IMG/VR virus record: IMGVR_UViG_3300046811_000186
Span: 1-48,145 of that record
Direction: 5' to 3' (one strand)
DNA length: 48,145 bases
DNA from: a virus
Shown: positions 2,821-18,504 of the stretch, piece by piece
Layout of the letters: each line of letters opens with the position of its first letter
Numbering within the stretch: position 1 is the first letter of the stretch
Translations under genes and position numbers: made by a program
The notes under the pieces: model-generated
Databases searched by the model: none
What the model saw: only the letters and a program-made list of their open reading frames with translations
What the model was told of the DNA's origin: nothing

Positions 2821-3966
2821 ATGACGAAAGACCGCAAGTGTGCGGGTTGCGAGAACCTCGTGTATCGCGACAGCAAGACCGGCCTTTGTAAGGATTGCTA
2901 CGGCAAATCTACGGCTCACGTTCCGGTAACCCTCGCGGCTGTAACAGCTACCGAGACTCTCGCTGCAGACAGGGAGAAGCGCAGATTAGCGGACGAACTG
3001 AGCCGCACCAAGGCGCTCTACAGCGAATCCCTGAAGACCATCGAGCAGCAGGAAGCCGACCTGCGGGCGATGAATGTCATGGCTTCAGGACAGGCGTCGT
3101 TCGACATCGTCCCCAGCGTGGGACAACGGGGCAACGAGGGGACCGCGGTTATCGTGGCGTCCGACTGGCACGCGGAAGAGAAGGTGCTCCCTGGTCAGGT
3201 GAACGGCCTGAACGAGTATTCGCTGGACATTTGCACGAGGCGTGCAACTAAGTTTTTTCAGGCAAGTCTGAATCTGGTCCAGCTCCTGGAAGAGCGGCTG
3301 GCGATTCCGAACATCATCCTGGCGCTCCTGGGCGACTTCATCACGAACAACATCCACGGAGAGGACAACGCGGAGACGAATGCGCTCCAGCCGATGCATG
3401 CGATTACGTTCGCGATGAATCTGCTTATCAGCGGTATCGACTTCTTGCTCGCAAACACGACGGCGACCTTTGTGGTTCCTTGCCACTCTGGGAACCACGC
3501 GCGCACGACCCAGAAGACTCGCTTTGCCTCGGAGAACGGGCATTCGCTGGAATATCTGATGTATCTGACGCTGGCGGCGCACTACCGGCACGAGCCGCGT
3601 ATCACGTTCCTAATCGCAGAGGGGATGCATTCCTATGTCGATGTCTATAAGGGTGAGCCGGGCGCGACGACCATACGTTTCCATCATGGGCATGCAGTTA
3701 AGTATGGGGGAGGCGTTGGCGGTATCTACATACCGGTTAACAAGGCCATCGCTCAATGGTCTAAAGCTCGTCATGCCGACCTCGACGTTTTTGGGCATTT
3801 CCACCAAATGCGGGACGGTGGAGCTTTTCTGTGTAACGGGTCACTTATCGGCTACAACTCCTTCGCCCTTTCGATAAAGGCCGACTTCGAGATGCCGCGA
3901 CAACTGCTATTCCTGATTGACCGTAAGCGCGGCCGCACATGCACATGGCCGATTCTGGTGAGGTAA
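2821..3966 (+). CDS. Calcineurin-like metallophosphoesterase with N-terminal zinc ribbon
   Basis: The 381-residue protein starts with a small zinc ribbon (C7-x2-C10 and C23-x2-C26) and a charged helical linker (about 50-90). The metallophosphoesterase domain follows with all expected metal motifs: DWH at 115-117, GD at 171-172, GNH at 224-226, HHGH at 288-291 and GHFH at 325-328. Such enzymes hydrolyse phosphodiesters or phosphomonoesters with two metal ions. The zinc ribbon suggests nucleic acid as target or docking surface, which is an inference. A good ribosome site (TAGGAG) lies 7-8 bases before the ATG. It is the first gene after the late operon and seems to have its own promoter. Confidence 0.9.
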   Translation: MTKDRKCAGCENLVYRDSKTGLCKDCYGKSTAHVPVTLAAVTATETLAADREKRRLADELSRTKALYSESLKTIEQQEADLRAMNVMASGQASFDIVPSVGQRGNEGTAVIVASDWHAEEKVLPGQVNGLNEYSLDICTRRATKFFQASLNLVQLLEERLAIPNIILALLGDFITNNIHGEDNAETNALQPMHAITFAMNLLISGIDFLLANTTATFVVPCHSGNHARTTQKTRFASENGHSLEYLMYLTLAAHYRHEPRITFLIAEGMHSYVDVYKGEPGATTIRFHHGHAVKYGGGVGGIYIPVNKAIAQWSKARHADLDVFGHFHQMRDGGAFLCNGSLIGYNSFALSIKADFEMPRQLLFLIDRKRGRTCTWPILVR

Positions 3967-9302: not shown

Positions 9303-11488
9303 TTGTGATACCTCTCTCCTGTCCAGCCTTCGGCTTCTACGGGACATCCGTCCGCCCAGTCGGGCGTCTCGGACATCAGTTGTTCGAATTCGTGGACGCT
9401 GCCGGTGCCAATGAGCGCCTCGGCTATCAGCTCATCATGCACTGAGAGGACCACTTCATACACACCTCTCTCTTCTGCACGGAGCATGCCATCGGCCATC
9501 AGGTCCCGACTGATAGCTTGCACAATGTTTTCGACAATCAGCCCGCCGTAGATGGTCTGGCGTTTCCACTTTTTAGTATACCCGTCGATACCCATGAAGG
9601 ACAGTTGTTGCTTTTCCTTCCCCCACGGCATCATCGCGGTCTTCACACGAGGCTCGCTGTAGGCCAGCCGGCGCCCGCTGGGGAGCACGCAGTAAAGGAA
9701 GGGCGCTGTGTAGACCCAGGTCACCTTGCCCTGCTGCACGGGGCTCCTGGTGACCACAGCGGCTATCGCAGCGGCTTCCTGGTCTGCCCACAGGTTCTTC
9801 ACGCGCCAGTATTTCGTGCGATAGGCCAGAACCACCTTCGCCCCGGTCATCGTGCCGTCTAGGTCATCGTCCGACTCGAACGGGTGGTCAGCACGACCGT
9901 GTTTACCCAGGGCTTCTCCGCAATCATCGCAGAAGAAGTCTTCAGGAATTTCAACTCCAGCGGCAGCGCAGGACGCAGCGAACTTAGCGGCGCCCATTTG
10001 GTAGCCGAGACCCAGAATGGCGATTTTCCCCAGTCCGCGTTCCTTCGGATGGTCCTTCTTATTAACCGCATACCCGTAGATGGCCTCCGCCATGTCGCAG
10101 TAGATGTCCGCGTGGCTGCGGAAGAGGTTCAGCCCAGGCTCGTCCTCAGCCAGCCATAGGAGCACGCGCGCCTCGATGCTGGCGAAGTCGGCCACGTAAA
10201 GGGTGTGACCGGGCCGGGCCACGATGGCGCCACGCAAGCCGGCACTCAATGCTTCCATCATCCCGCCATAGCTCGCAGCGACTGCTTCCCGCGTCCACGT
10301 CTTCAGGGCGACCCACAGCGTGTTGATATCGTCCGCGGTTGGTTTGGCTCCTTTTGCCGTGGGCGCTAGCTTCGGAAAGTTGTGTGGCTGAATCCCTTTA
10401 CCCGACCACCGTCCGGTGCTTGCCCCGTGATACAGGAGTCCCCCGCGAACGCGCCCATCGGCGGGGTCCATCCAAGCGTCCATAGCTGAATACTTCGCCG
10501 TAGAGGACCGGCCCAGAGCCCGCATGAGTTCGATGGCCCGCCTCGCTCGCGCGCTAAGACGAGGATTTGTGAGCACACCATCAAGAGTGGCCGCTTGTGT
10601 ATCTGGTAGCGCACAGTCTTCTGTCGCAAGCCACACCTTCATATCATCGCGCTGGGTTGTCTTCAGCACGTAGCCATCGGTGACTACGGCCAGTTCGTCG
10701 TTTAGGACCTCGGTCTCGTGCTCGACCAGTCGGAGCGCGGTGCTCACGGCTTCGGTGTCCAACTGGAATCCACGGGTGTTCATCTTCAGGTCGAGGTGGA
10801 ACAGGTCCCGCTCGTGCGGGTGCAGGTCCTCCAAGGCTTCACTGAGCGCCTCCTCGGCGAGCACGTCCTGCCGGCAGTAGGCCCACAGGGCATCGAATAG
10901 CTCAACCGACTCGTGCCACAGGAGCGCCGGCTCAGGCACGCCAGCAGCCGCCCAGGCCGCTCGCTCAGCCTTCCTGGACTTCCGGGGCGACCGGGTCTTT
11001 TTCGAGACGTGAACCGCCTTGAGGACCTTCACACCCTCGGTCTCGGTCTTGCGCGTGTCCTTGCGAATCTTGACGTGCAGTGCTGCGATAGCTTCGTCTA
11101 ACCCCCGCGGTAAAGCGTAGGACGCCGCCTTCGCAGCGGAGCACAACCACTGGCTCTGTCGTATGACCGGGAAGTCGAAGCGGGGCCGGAGTATATTGTT
11201 CCATATGCAAAACTCGAAGAAGACGTTGTGAGCTTCCACTGGTTCGCCCTGGTCAAGCCAGCGCACCAGCTCGCCCAGGTCATCCAGGTTCGCCGGCTCC
11301 TCAATACCCAGGTGAGGGAACGCCGGATGCCAGAGCCCTGTGCGGCCTTTCTCCCAGTAGGGGAGTCGAAAGGCCATGCACAGAGGCTCTGTGGTTGGGT
11401 CGATGGAATACCGCCACGTCCCGCACGTCTTCAGGTTCGCGGCGCTCCGCGTCTCGAAGTCGATTGTGGCGCGGGGTTCACGGGTCAT
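9299..11488 (-). CDS. Family A DNA polymerase with 3'-5' exonuclease domain, 729 aa
   Basis: The replicative polymerase. The N-terminal exonuclease has D10-F-E12 (DFETRS), the second motif 'EAHNVFFEFCIWN' near residue 110, and the third 'YCRQDVLAE' near 215. The polymerase domain has motif A 'YVADFASIEARVLLW', motif B 'ERGLGKIAILGLGYQMG' and motif C 'SVHDE' about 45 residues from the end. Between exonuclease motifs lies a basic insertion (about 135-175, KKTRSPRKSRKAERAAW). There is no 5'-3' exonuclease domain, as usual for phage enzymes. The ATG overlaps the stop of the nuclease gene (ATGA), with GAAGG before it. All catalytic residues are present. Confidence 0.95.
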   Translation of the reverse strand: MTREPRATIDFETRSAANLKTCGTWRYSIDPTTEPLCMAFRLPYWEKGRTGLWHPAFPHLGIEEPANLDDLGELVRWLDQGEPVEAHNVFFEFCIWNNILRPRFDFPVIRQSQWLCSAAKAASYALPRGLDEAIAALHVKIRKDTRKTETEGVKVLKAVHVSKKTRSPRKSRKAERAAWAAAGVPEPALLWHESVELFDALWAYCRQDVLAEEALSEALEDLHPHERDLFHLDLKMNTRGFQLDTEAVSTALRLVEHETEVLNDELAVVTDGYVLKTTQRDDMKVWLATEDCALPDTQAATLDGVLTNPRLSARARRAIELMRALGRSSTAKYSAMDAWMDPADGRVRGGLLYHGASTGRWSGKGIQPHNFPKLAPTAKGAKPTADDINTLWVALKTWTREAVAASYGGMMEALSAGLRGAIVARPGHTLYVADFASIEARVLLWLAEDEPGLNLFRSHADIYCDMAEAIYGYAVNKKDHPKERGLGKIAILGLGYQMGAAKFAASCAAAGVEIPEDFFCDDCGEALGKHGRADHPFESDDDLDGTMTGAKVVLAYRTKYWRVKNLWADQEAAAIAAVVTRSPVQQGKVTWVYTAPFLYCVLPSGRRLAYSEPRVKTAMMPWGKEKQQLSFMGIDGYTKKWKRQTIYGGLIVENIVQAISRDLMADGMLRAEERGVYEVVLSVHDELIAEALIGTGSVHEFEQLMSETPDWADGCPVEAEGWTGERYHK

Positions 11489-13010: not shown

Positions 13011-13368
13011 CGGTCTCCTCTGATTCGAAGATGAAGCTACGTTCACCATTGATGCGCGCCGCGAAGATACTCCGCACGGGCTGCAGTGCAGTGCCGTTGC
13101 GGATATAGACGTTCTCCTCTCCGACCATTTCATTCCGATTGATACCAATGCGCGCTGCAGCCATCCACAGCTCGCCCCACGACATGCCGGCTTTCAACGC
13201 TGCGATACGGAGCCCACGTTGCGACCGGCGCTCCAGGATGCCAGTGAGCACGCCCAGGCCAATACAGGAAGCGCCCAGGAGCACGAACGACATCACCGTA
13301 TGCATCTCGAAGAAGTGGCCCGCGAAGAAGACGCCCAGGATAGCCGCGAACGAGAGTATCGCAATCAC
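12997..13368 (-). CDS. Two-helix membrane protein, 123 aa (GTG start)
   Basis: GTG start overlapping the previous stop (GTGA) with GGGAGG six bases before it. Two hydrophobic helices (about residues 2-17 and 24-45) are followed by a basic stretch (LERRSQRGLR) and a soluble domain with 'GMSWGELWMAAARIGINRNE', an Arg/Glu-rich helix and a beta hairpin. It sits inside the recombination operon, overlapping the ATPase start, which is unusual for a membrane protein. It may tether replication to the membrane; that is inference. Confidence 0.65.
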   Translation of the reverse strand: MIAILSFAAILGVFFAGHFFEMHTVMSFVLLGASCIGLGVLTGILERRSQRGLRIAALKAGMSWGELWMAAARIGINRNEMVGEENVYIRNGTALQPVRSIFAARINGERSFIFESEETDGKK

Positions 13369-13946
13369 TTAATCCTCCCTGTGTGAAGCGCGTGGTTCAT
13401 GCACATCTGCTCGTTCTCGATTAGCTCAACGTCGTTCCAGTGTAAGTGGAACAATCGGAATTGCGGCTTCCACGGTTGGTGGAGAAACAACGCAGCGAGC
13501 ACGCCGTCGTGCAGGTCGAGCCAGCGCGCGTAGAGCATCATCTGGGTCAGATACTTATTCAGCTTCTGAGGCAGATAGTTAGTCTCCGTCGTGGGCATAT
13601 CCTTAGCGCTCATGGAGGTAAGCTTTATTTCCCAAAGCCGCGTCTTCCCATTGAACTGCAGAAGGTCTGGCGAAAAGGCCACGCTATGCGGAGGCGGGGA
13701 AAAGAATTCGCCCGGCCGCTCCACCACAATACCGGACTTCTCCAGGAGGTATTCCAGATGCTTCTCCCAGGCGGTGCCGAGTGCCATGAGCACGGGGTCT
13801 GGTGGTTCGTCGCCATAGTCATACCGCTTAGGCTCCAGGAACTTGTAGAGGTCACCGTAAATCTCACTCGCATGGAGCCCCGGCGACCGCACAAGGTCGG
13901 ACGCGAGGAAGTCGATGCCGTGGTCGAACACCGGCTTCACAATCAT
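13365..13946 (-). CDS. PD-(D/E)XK exonuclease-like protein, 193 aa
   Basis: I use the ATG at 13946, preceded by GGAG about nine bases upstream; a GTG at 13961 is the alternative. Catalytic pattern: FSPDLL (D94), LWEIKLTS (E106, K108) and a trailing Q in 'KYLTQMMLYARW' (about Q134), as in RecB/Cas4-type nucleases. At 193 residues it is a single-domain enzyme. Paired with the Sak4-like ATPase it could generate single strands for annealing, as lambda Exo does for Beta. Its stop overlaps the next start. Confidence 0.8.
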   Translation of the reverse strand: MIVKPVFDHGIDFLASDLVRSPGLHASEIYGDLYKFLEPKRYDYGDEPPDPVLMALGTAWEKHLEYLLEKSGIVVERPGEFFSPPPHSVAFSPDLLQFNGKTRLWEIKLTSMSAKDMPTTETNYLPQKLNKYLTQMMLYARWLDLHDGVLAALFLHQPWKPQFRLFHLHWNDVELIENEQMCMNHALHTGRIK

Positions 13947-13993
13947 TTCCGTGTTCTCCACAGATGAAACTTAAACCACACAGGAGGATAGAA

Positions 13994-14164
13994 ATGGAAC
14001 ATGAACCAACGCGAGGAAACAAGGTATCCCCGGCGCTCGTAGTGGCGCGTGTAGTTGAAGCGCGTTACTCGCACAGCATCCTCCTGAAACACTTAAGGGG
14101 CGCACAGACCGCCTATGTCCATGCGCCCCTGTTCGCTGAGAGCGGATTCGTGTTGTTAGTTTGA
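13994..14164 (+). CDS. Possible small protein, 56 aa
   Basis: An ATG with an ideal ribosome site (AGGAGG at 13982-13987, six-base spacing) opens 56 codons on the plus strand, opposite in direction to the surrounding minus-strand genes. The product has a hydrophobic C-terminal half (LLKHLRGAQTAYVHAP then FAESGFVLLV). Against it: a 33-base hairpin with a perfect 8-bp core (14097-14129) lies inside the frame and folds better on the minus strand, and no plus-strand promoter is obvious in the 30 bp upstream. Either a real gene or a chance frame over structured RNA. Confidence 0.45.
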   Translation: MEHEPTRGNKVSPALVVARVVEARYSHSILLKHLRGAQTAYVHAPLFAESGFVLLV

Positions 14165-14572
14165 CGGGACGCTATGCCCGTCTACTCCGGTGCGCTCTCG
14201 TTCGAGATGGTGAAGGCCACGCACTATCCGCCGTAGCGGGTTGCGTCGTTACTGCCGCTTCGCTAGCCTTCGATTGGTGGAACCGCTCCGACCGTCGTCG
14301 GCATCTAGGACTGTTCACCCTAGAACTTCGGGCTCGTTCTCGGCCAGTATGCGGCCCCGTTACTTAGTGCCGGTGGGCTCGACAGTTCCCACTTCTCCCA
14401 CACCAATGCGGGGCTCTATTTCGTCGTCTTATGAGCTACGGCATCCGGATGGGAAGTTCAGCTACCTATGCGGGACCGGGGTATCCGTAGCCCGCCCTTT
14501 CGAAGTAGCTCCATATCGCGCAGGAGGTTTCCCTTCCTGTTACCCCGCGTTTATCCTCCCCAAAATCAATCT
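14097..14572 (-). ncRNA. Candidate large structured RNA next to tRNA-Asn
   Basis: About 410 bases (14163-14572) hold no supported gene on either strand but are packed with short perfect stems. On the minus strand they include: 14522-14538 (stem around a GAAA tetraloop), 14460-14465/14505-14510 enclosing 14470-14474/14491-14495, a multibranch closed by 14368-14372/14439-14443 containing three stems (14373-14377/14388-14392, 14397-14401/14408-14412, 14413-14416/14433-14436), 14342-14356, 14305-14323, 14288-14301, 14190-14224 with inner 14196-14207, 14163-14182 and 14097-14129. Three stems contain G-U pairs that only work on the minus strand, which is the direction of transcription here. No family is assigned; GOLLD and ROOL are known large phage RNAs that lie near tRNAs. 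Confidence 0.5.
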
Positions 14573-14648
14573 TGGCTGACAGAGCAGGATTTGAACCTGC
14601 GACCATCCCGTTAACAGCGGGGCGCTCTACCGACTGAGCTACCTGTCA
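14573..14648 (-). tRNA. tRNA-Asn (anticodon GTT), CCA encoded
   Basis: A complete 76-base cloverleaf on the minus strand: acceptor TGACAGG with TCTGTCA, D-arm GCTC/GAGC, anticodon loop CTGTTAA (anticodon GTT at loop positions 3-5) on a CCCCG/CGGGA stem, T-arm GCAGG-TTCAAAT-CCTGC, discriminator G and an encoded CCA. The only imperfections are the last anticodon-stem pair and one G-U in the acceptor. It would read AAC and AAU. It lies in the middle of the structured non-coding stretch. Confidence 0.97.
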
Positions 14649-14652
14649 AAAG

Positions 14653-14679
14653 GCCGGGTTAGTTAAAGTGCAACCCGGC
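14653..14679 (-). terminator. Hairpin with CTTTT, possible terminator
   Basis: A perfect 8-bp stem GCCGGGTT/AACCCGGC with an 11-base loop is followed on the minus strand by CTTTT and then, within four bases, by the tRNA. It may partially end transcription from the 14742-15620 gene, or mark the 5' processing region of the tRNA. Confidence 0.5.
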
Positions 14680-14688
14680 GAATCACTA

Positions 14689-14735
14689 GCGGGACTTATG
14701 GCTCGGATTCGATGTCCGGTTAAGTCGCTGCCCGC
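14689..14735 (-). other. 47-nt folded element between gene and tRNA
   Basis: On the minus strand GCGG plus GACTTA pairs with the continuous TAAGTCCCGC, with a five-base bulge on one side, enclosing a small CGGA/TCCG hairpin with loop CATCGAA. It looks like a reduced tRNA-like or RNA-processing element, or the upstream end of the larger structured RNA. No gene is present here. Confidence 0.35.
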
Positions 14736-14741
14736 GTATCC

Positions 14742-15620
14742 TTACTCGTCGTCGCCGTCCGTCGCCTCGACCGTGATGACTTCCTTGTCTTCGTTGTAGC
14801 TCCAGCCGTCCTCGGTATTGAGGAACTTATCGGAGAGCACCAGCTTGCGGACCGCCTCGCGCTGCGGATGCTTGCTCATGCCGTTCTCCGGCTTCAGGAG
14901 CGCCATCGAGACCTTCGCCTTCGCCAGCTTGCCCTTGTTCGCCGCGACGACCTTCAGGATGAACGCGGTTGCGAGCGATTCGACCGTGACTTCCTCGTCG
15001 GCCTCCTCGACAACCGCCGTCTTCTTGCCCTTGGTCGCGACCGGCGCCGCGGTCTTCTTTGAGCCCTTGGTGCCGGGCAGCTCGTAGACCTGGTCGATGG
15101 TCGTCGTCGTCACCGGGAACGTCTTGCCTTTGTGCGTCCCCTTCTTCACCAGACGGGTCTTCGGCTTCCCGTCGCGGTCCAGAACCGGGCTCTGGACGAA
15201 CCGAACCCGTGTGCCGATGATGGGCTCGAAGTTGATGGAATCGGGGTCATCGCTGAACCGATTCTCATCGAAGTTCGCCTCGACCAAGGACGCGATGAAG
15301 CGCGATGCCGGCTGGTTCTGCCCCAGGGTCGCCTCGCCTCCGCCGACCGCGGTCAGGGTCAGGCCATCCTCGGACACCTCGAACTGCTCGAAGTCGCCCG
15401 CCTTCAGCAGGTCCTTCAGCTCGTCCTCGGCGCCGTCCAGCAGATACGTGTATTCCAGGTAGAGCCAGTGGAACTTCGGGTCCTTCGAACCCGGATAGTT
15501 GCCCGGTTCGAACGCTTCGCCGTTGAATTCGTCGGTGAACCGGTAGCCGGTAATCTTGCCGTCCACACCGTTCAGCCGCCCGCCCGTCGCCGCGCGGAAT
15601 GTCGAAGGTCTTGCGCCCAT
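14742..15620 (-). CDS. Hypothetical protein in SSB-like position, 292 aa
   Basis: GGAGAG precedes the ATG by eight bases. The N-terminal 185 residues are beta-rich with aromatic residues (ITGYRFTDEFNGEAFEPGN, FHWLYLEYTYLLDG). A flexible Lys/Ala/Thr linker follows (about 186-205, GSKKTAAPVATKGKK), then an acidic stretch and a helical C-terminal domain, ending in the acidic tail EATDGDDE. Oligonucleotide-binding fold plus linker plus acidic tail is the layout of single-stranded-DNA-binding proteins. I infer that role; I do not recognise the family. Its start region resembles that of the gene at 18165. Confidence 0.75.
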   Translation of the reverse strand: MGARPSTFRAATGGRLNGVDGKITGYRFTDEFNGEAFEPGNYPGSKDPKFHWLYLEYTYLLDGAEDELKDLLKAGDFEQFEVSEDGLTLTAVGGGEATLGQNQPASRFIASLVEANFDENRFSDDPDSINFEPIIGTRVRFVQSPVLDRDGKPKTRLVKKGTHKGKTFPVTTTTIDQVYELPGTKGSKKTAAPVATKGKKTAVVEEADEEVTVESLATAFILKVVAANKGKLAKAKVSMALLKPENGMSKHPQREAVRKLVLSDKFLNTEDGWSYNEDKEVITVEATDGDDE

Positions 15621-15709: not shown

Positions 15710-15973
15710 CTAGCAGCGGTAGCGTCCCTGCGCCGCCCCACTATATGGCAGACCGGCCTGTTGCTTCTCGTTCTGATTCGAGGACATCTCTGTCCCCTGC
15801 GCGTAGGACATCGGGGGATGCAGCAGGTGCAGGAGCTGGATGAAAATCTGTTCGGTATCCGCCCGCCCATCGACGTCGAGGAGATTCAGAAGATTCTGCG
15901 CCATCGTGCGGCTCAGGGCGATGCCCACGAGGGGCTCCTGAGGTTCCGGTTCCAACCAATCTACTCTAACCAT
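15710..15973 (-). CDS. Hypothetical protein, 87 aa
   Basis: The ATG overlaps the last codons of the ligase-like gene (ATGGTTAG) and has GGGAGAG upstream. The N-terminus is acidic and Pro-rich (WLEPEPQEPL), followed by two helices (GIALSRTMAQNLLNLLDVDG and TEQIFIQLLHLLH), then a polar tail. No motif is recognised. The coupling suggests that it works with the ligase-like protein or the SSB-like protein. Confidence 0.6.
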   Translation of the reverse strand: MVRVDWLEPEPQEPLVGIALSRTMAQNLLNLLDVDGRADTEQIFIQLLHLLHPPMSYAQGTEMSSNQNEKQQAGLPYSGAAQGRYRC

Positions 15974-16859
15974 TGTTCTCTCCCTCTATTTCGAACTGCC
16001 GACGCAGCAGCTCGTTCTTATACCATTCGGGCATCCCCTTGGTTACCGCGCGCTGGACATGCGGCCATGCCCACTTCCACAGTAGCCGCTTTATCTCCTC
16101 CTTCTCTTCCATCCCCAGGTCCTTGGCAATCTCGGGAATCAGCAGCCCGATGTCCTTCGGGGAATCGGTGAGCTGGCCCGCCTCCCGGAGATGCTGGACA
16201 GCCTTCATCCACCGTGCCTCGGTCGTGTAGGTCTTCGCAAGCCGTTCGAGGATATCCCCGCTATTCGGGCTCGTCTCCTTCCACGCGTGCTTGTGGGCTT
16301 CCTTGAACCGCTCGCTGACGAACTTGCCCATCAGGGTCTTCTTGTCCTGGCCGTAAAGCTCGACCAGCGGCTTCACCACGACCCCCTCAATGAGCTGACC
16401 GCCCAGCACACTGGTCGTGGTATCCAGGATGGTCCTGAGGGTCTCTAGGGTCGTCGGCGGGCTCGCGGTGCCCGGCTTGGACACATAGAGCACCGGCACA
16501 CATTCGAGCCCTAAGCGGTCCGCCTCGTAACGCTTCGCCACGGGGTTGAGCCACTCGCTGTCGCCCGTGCTCACGTCGAACAGGATGACGTGGTCCTTCG
16601 GAGCCCGGTCATAACTGAGCGTGTTATGTTTCGGCTTCGCGAGATATTCGCACCGGTATGTCCAACCGGGGTGGAGCAGCCCTTCGTCACGGAGCCGCTT
16701 TGCGGTATCAACCGCCCGGTTGAACATCTTCTCCGGCGCATCCACCATCATCACAGCGCCCTTAGAGCGGACCATCAGTTCGTAGTCGTGCGGCCCGCCT
16801 GGGATGCGTAGTAGAGCCAACGATGCACACAGGTCATTCGATGGTCTCCCGCTCCTCAA
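15966..16859 (-). CDS. RNA/DNA ligase-like nucleotidyltransferase, N-terminus incomplete
   Basis: The frame is open to a TTG at 16859, but the true start is unclear (ATG at 16775 is the first good codon). Ligase motifs present: 'YRCEYLAKPKHNTLSYDR' and 'VILFDV' (motifs III/IIIa), 'LIEGVVVKP' (IV) and 'LMGKFVSERFKE' (V), then a helical C-terminal domain. The adenylation motif I (KxDG), expected shortly before 'YELMVRSKG', is not in this frame. A well-placed ATG overlapping the upstream TGA (at 16837) starts in the +1 frame and stops after 20 codons. I suspect truncation or a frameshift, so the enzyme may be inactive. Confidence 0.65.
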   Translation of the reverse strand: MRSGRPSNDLCASLALLRIPGGPHDYELMVRSKGAVMMVDAPEKMFNRAVDTAKRLRDEGLLHPGWTYRCEYLAKPKHNTLSYDRAPKDHVILFDVSTGDSEWLNPVAKRYEADRLGLECVPVLYVSKPGTASPPTTLETLRTILDTTTSVLGGQLIEGVVVKPLVELYGQDKKTLMGKFVSERFKEAHKHAWKETSPNSGDILERLAKTYTTEARWMKAVQHLREAGQLTDSPKDIGLLIPEIAKDLGMEEKEEIKRLLWKWAWPHVQRAVTKGMPEWYKNELLRRQFEIEGENNG

Positions 16860-18165: not shown

Positions 18166-18260
18166 TAGCGGCTCTCCGGATGTCGAAACAGGGCGACGAG
18201 CCCGCCAATATACAGCACGAGAACTACGAGAATGGCGACGATGTCAGCAATAGGCAACAT
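18165..18260 (-). CDS. Single-helix membrane microprotein, 31 aa
   Basis: The ATG at 18260 has ACGAGG six bases before it, and the stop overlaps the ATPase start (TAATG). The peptide is almost all one membrane helix (MLPIADIVAILVVLVLYIGG) with a short basic tail (FRHPESR). The role is unknown; early phage membrane microproteins often act on host transporters or envelope, which is a general inference only. Confidence 0.65.
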   Translation of the reverse strand: MLPIADIVAILVVLVLYIGGLVALFRHPESR

Positions 18261-18312
18261 GGTGAACCTCGTGAAAAAGGTCCGCCCAGTTACCCAGGCG
18301 GACCACAGACAA

Positions 18313-18504
18313 TCAGAAGATGCGCGAGGCGCTGTTGAGACGATAGCCGTTGCGCTCGGTGATGATGTCGAAACCATCGTCACGCAGAGCAACGATGTCC
18401 CGACGAACAGACGGCACCGGAGCGCCAACGTGCGCGGCCAACACTCGCGCGTTCAACACCGCCTCTTTCAACAGGTTGTAAATCTTCGTCTGACGTTCGC
18501 TCAT
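18313..18504 (-). CDS. HTH transcriptional regulator-like protein, 63 aa
   Basis: TGAGGA lies before the ATG. The whole protein is one winged helix-turn-helix of the HTH_11/DeoR type: 'RQTKIYNLLKEAVLNARVLA', recognition helix 'APVPSVRRDIVALRDDGF', wing 'DIITERNGYRL'. It is the clearest transcription-factor candidate in the minus-strand early unit and may bind one of the palindromes in the divergent control region. Confidence 0.8.
   Translation of the reverse strand: MSERQTKIYNLLKEAVLNARVLAAHVGAPVPSVRRDIVALRDDGFDIITERNGYRLNSASRIF

Follow-up and report, generated by a model that had tools for sequence, protein, structure and literature searches.

Gene order and the non-coding gap

We analysed IMG/VR record IMGVR_UViG_3300046811_000186, a contig from an uncultured phage, over its whole length of 48,145 bases (the window). 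Its minus strand carries an operon in which an SSB-like gene is followed by a gap, a small ORF, a PD-(D/E)XK-like gene, a Sak4-like gene, the gene for an ERCC4-domain nuclease and polA. The upstream protein (14742–15620, minus) is called SSB-like tentatively: it has no Pfam, PHROGs or NCBIfam match, and a model of moderate confidence predicts a beta-rich N-terminal domain with weak fold matches, a phage SSB standing at rank 9. The PD-(D/E)XK-like protein (13365–13946, minus), our synteny anchor, which was aligned in seven phages, also has no family match and keeps the name given in the first-pass annotation. The small ORF (13943–14074, minus) has a GTG start, and its Shine-Dalgarno is the 3′ end of the RNA element described below (CAGGAGGATGCTGTG, read in the sequence).

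In the direction of transcription, the gap consists of ∼93 nt with a terminator-like hairpin, a tRNA and then 498 nt. The tRNA-Asn named on first reading was borne out at 14573–14648 (minus), with a GTT anticodon and an encoded CCA (ARAGORN; Rfam RF00005, 67 bits). The terminator-like hairpin, CCGGGUU...AACCCGG-CCUUUU (14649–14678, minus), was read in the sequence immediately ahead of the tRNA, and 14649–14741 folds at z −3.0 relative to shuffles. The view that the DNA flanking the tRNA is devoid of any supportable gene also stood, for ∼590 nt (14075–14572 and 14649–14741). We judge these stretches gene-free because the antisense ORFs have no family match, because their similarity to the closest relative (L005) does not extend beyond the RNA element and some short segments, and because the alignment of the two gaps contains single-base indels, which speak against the well-conserved part coding for a conserved protein. 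A coding explanation was rejected on the grounds that these ORFs lack family matches and are not conserved across the indels. The gene-free stretch is not unique in size, since the mechanical ORF list has other gaps of >400 bp near 24.1–24.55 kb and 27.3–27.7 kb.

An RNA ligase gene (Pfam/PHROGs RNA ligase) lies close upstream of the SSB-like gene at 15966–16859 (minus). In L005 a T4 RnlA-like RNA ligase gene (859–2130) occupies the corresponding place, and a similar-looking ORF was read by eye in another relative (L002, 1259–1810). RNA ligase genes beside the tRNA region are a possible tRNA repair set.

A conserved two-hairpin RNA at the 3′ end of the gap

The first-pass annotation had regarded the whole of 14097–14572 as unusually structured. 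Taken overall, this did not hold. The 483 nt of 14090–14572 have folding z-scores of −2.35 (minus strand) and −1.70 (plus strand), the 498-nt RNA gave z −1.76 with separate shuffles, and 200-nt windows across 14101–14600 were ordinary on the minus strand. The signal lies instead in 14079–14205 (z −3.0) and in the terminator-like hairpin before the tRNA, whereas the 5′ 367 nt (14206–14572) fold no better than shuffled sequence (z −0.85). Given this difference between the 3′ and 5′ parts, many of the perfect stems listed are at the level expected by chance for GC-rich sequence of such length; the GAAA stem, CCGAC-CGTC-GTCGG and the multibranch loop are all present as sequence, but no counterpart of them was seen in L005. 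Elsewhere, some 200-nt windows fold more strongly than anything in the stretch first singled out (18201–18400 plus, z −4.1; 11201–11400 minus, z −4.6).

The 3′ domain (14079–14206, minus) is a genuine structured RNA. It is 86–90% identical to 3722–3847 of L005, compared with 46–84% for the flanking genes and background identity for the rest of the gap, which makes it the best-conserved DNA between the SSB-like and PD-(D/E)XK genes of the two phages. In both, its stability exceeds that of dinucleotide-shuffled sequence, the z-score in L005 being −4.75. A covariance model built from these two domains (R1) returned a third, distant copy in L051 (2941–3069), which covered the whole model and scored 23.1 bits (E 2e-4 in 243 kb, a rough E-value).

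Standard pairs fill 97.2% of pair cells in the three-member alignment. Two-sided compensatory changes occur at 12 of the 36 pairs, compared with a mean of 4.0 in shuffles and with none of 500 shuffles reaching 12; these statistics rest on three sequences and are somewhat inflated by an alignment that was fitted to the covariance model and its structure. When the partners were slid by 1–3 columns, pairing fell to 24–50%. The covariation can also be read directly in the sequences, where the inner stem of the first hairpin changes from GACGGG/CCCGUC to GAGCGG/CCG(u)CUC, and likewise in the terminal stem. The structured minus-strand RNA that had been proposed thus has covariation among homologues behind it, but for the 3′ ∼128 nt and not for the whole stretch.

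The first hairpin (14138–14199, minus) has an outer stem GAGAGCG/CGCUCUC, an internal loop with CAYCGGA, the inner stem and an apical loop CAUnGCGn. Both stems are altered on both sides in L051, while CAYCGGA is conserved; the loop GGCAUnGCGnCC is the same in each of the three members, and elsewhere in the loci retrieved it is rare. The second hairpin (14096–14130, minus) is a stem of 14–15 bp, with G-U pairs on the minus strand, that stands immediately before the ribosome-binding site. Eight of 14 pairs have changed on both sides and 100% of cells are paired, so that the 13-bp, G-U-containing stem originally noted at 14097–14129 is kept in L005 and L051 through compensatory change. Since the G-U pairs of the element fall on the sense (operon) strand, and since its antisense version scores far lower in the R1 search, with mismatches, we conclude, in agreement with the first reading, that it is the minus-strand RNA which folds. 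The 3′ hairpin does not resemble a Rho-independent terminator: it is followed by CUUAAGUGUUUC, with no U-run, and a terminator scan of the minus strand reported none there.

A fixed position in three divergent phages

Relatives were collected by protein-guided IMG/VR scans with the SSB-like, Sak4, ERCC4-nuclease and PD-(D/E)XK proteins, which gave about twenty distinct phages, most of them sharing the gene order. The closest is L005 (PD-(D/E)XK protein 77–79% identical, gap of ∼590 nt); the PD-(D/E)XK protein of L051 is just 31% identical. In the window and in both of these phages the element occupies the same site in the SSB-like to PD-(D/E)XK interval, between two same-strand genes, and reaches the Shine-Dalgarno of the next ORF. 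The L051 copy begins at 2941, three bases past the end of the SSB-like stop codon (2938), and ends at 3069, four before the ATG at 3073; it is practically the whole intercistronic region, and there is no tRNA there. The upstream gene family is constant in the three phages. The downstream gene varies, being a 43-aa ORF, a zinc-ribbon-like ORF or a 136-aa ORF.

The element is absent from the majority of relatives in which this gene order is kept. A second covariance model (R2), run over 19 whole relative records, found no fourth convincing member, a weak match in G009 having E 0.03. Exact-word IMG/VR scans, made with CACCGGAGTAGACGGGC, with GGCTACGGATACCCCGG and with a gapped loop pattern, found a homologue on the L005 contig only, and five other loci (L006 and L008–L011) were rejected as chance matches in unrelated sequence. 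Searches of INPHARED phages gave tRNA or chance matches only, and at the protein level nothing related to the SSB-like, Sak4-like or PD-(D/E)XK proteins turned up. Genome contigs searched with the SSB-like and PD-(D/E)XK alignments gave nothing, and no cultured relative was found in the searches made.

Comparison with known RNA families

The first-pass annotation had suggested a GOLLD- or ROOL-like RNA, an identity that we do not support. With Rfam 15, cmscan of 13900–14800 at the gathering threshold and at E ≤ 5 gave only the tRNA as a convincing match, and the same searches of L005 and L051, and of other relatives at E ≤ 1 or 2, gave only tRNAs or chance matches. Neither the GOLLD nor the ROOL covariance model found a match in 13900–14800, L005 or the other relatives. 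Many GOLLD members exceed 800 nt, with a conserved 3′ and a variable 5′ region, and lie near tRNAs (PMC12286853). The RNA here is similarly a phage RNA beside a tRNA with a conserved 3′ and a variable 5′ part, but the non-coding RNA is at most 500 nt in total, and its conserved part of ∼128 nt stands alone in L051. ROOL RNAs are phage-encoded and often found near tRNA islands, ROOL env-120 being ∼659 nt (PMC12286853). The phage origin and tRNA setting are shared; however, the present RNA is smaller, and hairpins are predicted here whereas ROOL has a multi-pseudoknot structure.

Better functional analogues are found among other structured elements, although all differ in sequence and none matched here in Rfam. 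The manA and wcaG motifs are structured phage RNA elements, and manA, found in potential 5′ UTRs, is presumed to be cis-regulatory (PMC2864571); they lie upstream of metabolic genes and differ from the present element in structure as well. STAXI, a tandem pseudoknot near single-stranded-DNA-binding protein genes (PMC2864571), shares the SSB-gene neighbourhood but not the fold, which here is two successive hairpins. The L17 downstream element, a structured RNA that follows a coding gene directly (PMC2864571), resembles our element in its site just 3′ of a gene, but differs in its bacterial ribosomal-protein context. The absence of an Rfam match sets the element apart from the catalogued families, and it is new. 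We conclude that it represents an uncatalogued, covariation-supported phage RNA family with three members found, most likely a small gene-control element.

The variable 5′ region

Between the tRNA and the element lies a variable non-coding region (14207–14572, minus) that is 24–51% identical to L005 across most of its length. The sole block that stands out is 20 nt (19 identical in L005) within a small hairpin, GCGGG-CUACGGAUACCCCGGU-CCCGC (14470–14495, minus). Its stem GCGGG/CCCGC becomes ACUGG/CCAGU in L005, equivalent to two compensatory changes; with two sequences, this covariation is suggestive and not proof.

A candidate long-range stem, CGGGCU (14494–14489) with AGCCCG (14334–14329; the whole spanning 14329–14494, minus), flanks ACGGAUA and GAACG. 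This stem excludes the small hairpin and is 5.4 kcal/mol worse than it in the window. ACGGAUA followed by GAACGAG, with flanking complementary stems, is found in the window, L034 and L035. The ACGGAUA...GAACG arrangement was observed in 2 of 15 gaps, against one sequence in all 20,000 shuffled sets of 15 gaps; the motifs were picked post hoc, and the excess was still significant after a rough correction for selectable 7-mers. We keep this weaker motif as a lead, and no more than that: L034 and L035 have the stem in different registers, it does not form in L005, and in the window the local hairpin is better. GAACGAG as a family-wide motif was downgraded (6 of 17 gaps, compared with a maximum of 5 in shuffles), since the L051 and 3′-domain copies fail to align with the 5′ copies. 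With one conserved hairpin and one weaker common motif, the reading of these ∼370 nt as part of a large RNA is unproven.

Proposed role and alternative explanations

We put at about even the prospect that the element is an intercistronic RNA that acts in cis on a polycistronic phage transcript. Because it makes up almost the entire intercistronic region in L051 and ends at the Shine-Dalgarno in all three phages, a cis-acting element is favoured over a free RNA; because its loops are fixed within changing stems, recognition by a factor is favoured over a plain roadblock. The RNA between the SSB-like stop codon and the next Shine-Dalgarno folds into two hairpins; the fixed loops of the first may bind a factor, either a small molecule or a protein of the phage or its host, and the second would insulate the two messages. 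Expression could then be set separately for the SSB-like gene upstream and the recombination genes downstream, via translation initiation or mRNA processing/decay. In the lineage of the window, the tRNA-Asn and ∼370 nt of fast-changing sequence would have been inserted upstream of the element. As the upstream family is constant and the downstream ORF changes, the element could as well control the upstream gene, from the 3′ end of that gene, as the downstream one; a regulator of the downstream gene would not be expected to have a varying target, and the variation could indicate action on the upstream gene. Against a cis-acting element are the small number of members (three) and its absence from most relatives of the same gene order.

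The hairpin pair could alternatively be a stable processing or decay barrier with no specific ligand, parting the SSB-like message from the next and shielding its 3′ end from exonucleases, or being cut by an endonuclease. The very stable terminal hairpin of 14–15 bp without a U-run would suit this, as would the constancy of the upstream neighbour and the strong but unrelated hairpins that many relatives have in this gap (e.g. L001, z −6.2). A pure barrier would have no need of loops that stay fixed as the stems change, as GGCAUnGCGnCC and CAYCGGA do, and we consider this explanation unlikely. We think it more doubtful still that 14075–14572 as a whole encodes a single large phage RNA that acts in trans, its 3′ domain conserved and its 5′ domain variable, and works like GOLLD or ROOL without belonging to either. 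L005 has a comparable RNA of ∼395 nt (z −4.9), a small hairpin is conserved in the 5′ part, a tRNA or tRNA-like sequence is nearby in the window and L005, the corresponding gap of L045 contains a tRNA-Phe, and GOLLD has the same division into conserved and variable regions, near tRNAs (PMC12286853). However, the 5′ part in the window folds like shuffled sequence and is poorly conserved in L005, the 3′ domain occurs alone in L051, and no promoter of its own was found in a scan of the locus; a large RNA is less likely than the small covariation-supported family.

For the 5′ part alone (14207–14572), a tentative reading, which we rate a little short of even, is that it is decayed or inserted sequence with no present function, for example what is left of a tRNA array or of a mobile insert. 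This is compatible with a cis-acting 3′ element and agrees with the lack of any MFE excess, the near-background identity and the different content in every relative. It does not account for the 20-nt block with its covarying stem in L005, nor for ACGGAUA...GAACG and its flanking stem in L034 and L035, where even one sequence is expected in ∼1 in 20,000 shuffled sets, before correcting for the post hoc choice of motif. It is also improbable, in our estimation, that we are dealing with a new class of phage RNA in which the conserved ∼128-nt 3′ domain is combined with a 5′ domain that diversifies rapidly and with a tRNA or a structure resembling one, the same interval being a hot spot of unrelated structured RNAs and tRNAs with a common role.

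The cis-acting element would, if its loops bind a factor, be a compact switch that balances a phage DNA-binding protein against recombination enzymes. The family itself adds an uncatalogued, covariation-supported RNA to those of tailed phages, at a fixed point between SSB-like and recombination/replication genes, and it illustrates that in a large gap that appears structured, the signal may sit in part only.

Other features of the same gap in relatives

The distant relative L045 has a tRNA-Phe in this gap (2844–2919) with ∼200 nt of non-coding sequence ahead of it. In L022 a tRNA-Leu-like sequence (2066–2172) was uncalled by ARAGORN and has a T-loop UGCAAAU in place of the usual TTC-type loop; L005 has a similar T-arm-like end with CCA (3365–3456). 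T-arm-like and D-arm-like pieces in L002 prompted us to consider a circularly permuted tRNA there, for which we found no support. L045 (∼2722–2760) and L046 (∼205–245) have in common the motif UGUAGGA-GCCGN..NCGGC-CCACA, whose covarying stem suggests that it is possibly another RNA family. A long conserved hairpin, GCCCGTCCTCAGTC...GACTGCAGGACGGGC, is found in L001 (1216–1340), whose gap has z −6.2, and in L003 (6895–6970). The ∼340 nt of non-coding sequence in L032 (3175–3520) contain several strong hairpins, with an overall z of just −1.0. In L028 (2400–3700) the gap is filled by extra ORFs, one of which has CxxC and looks HNH/endonuclease VII-like by eye.
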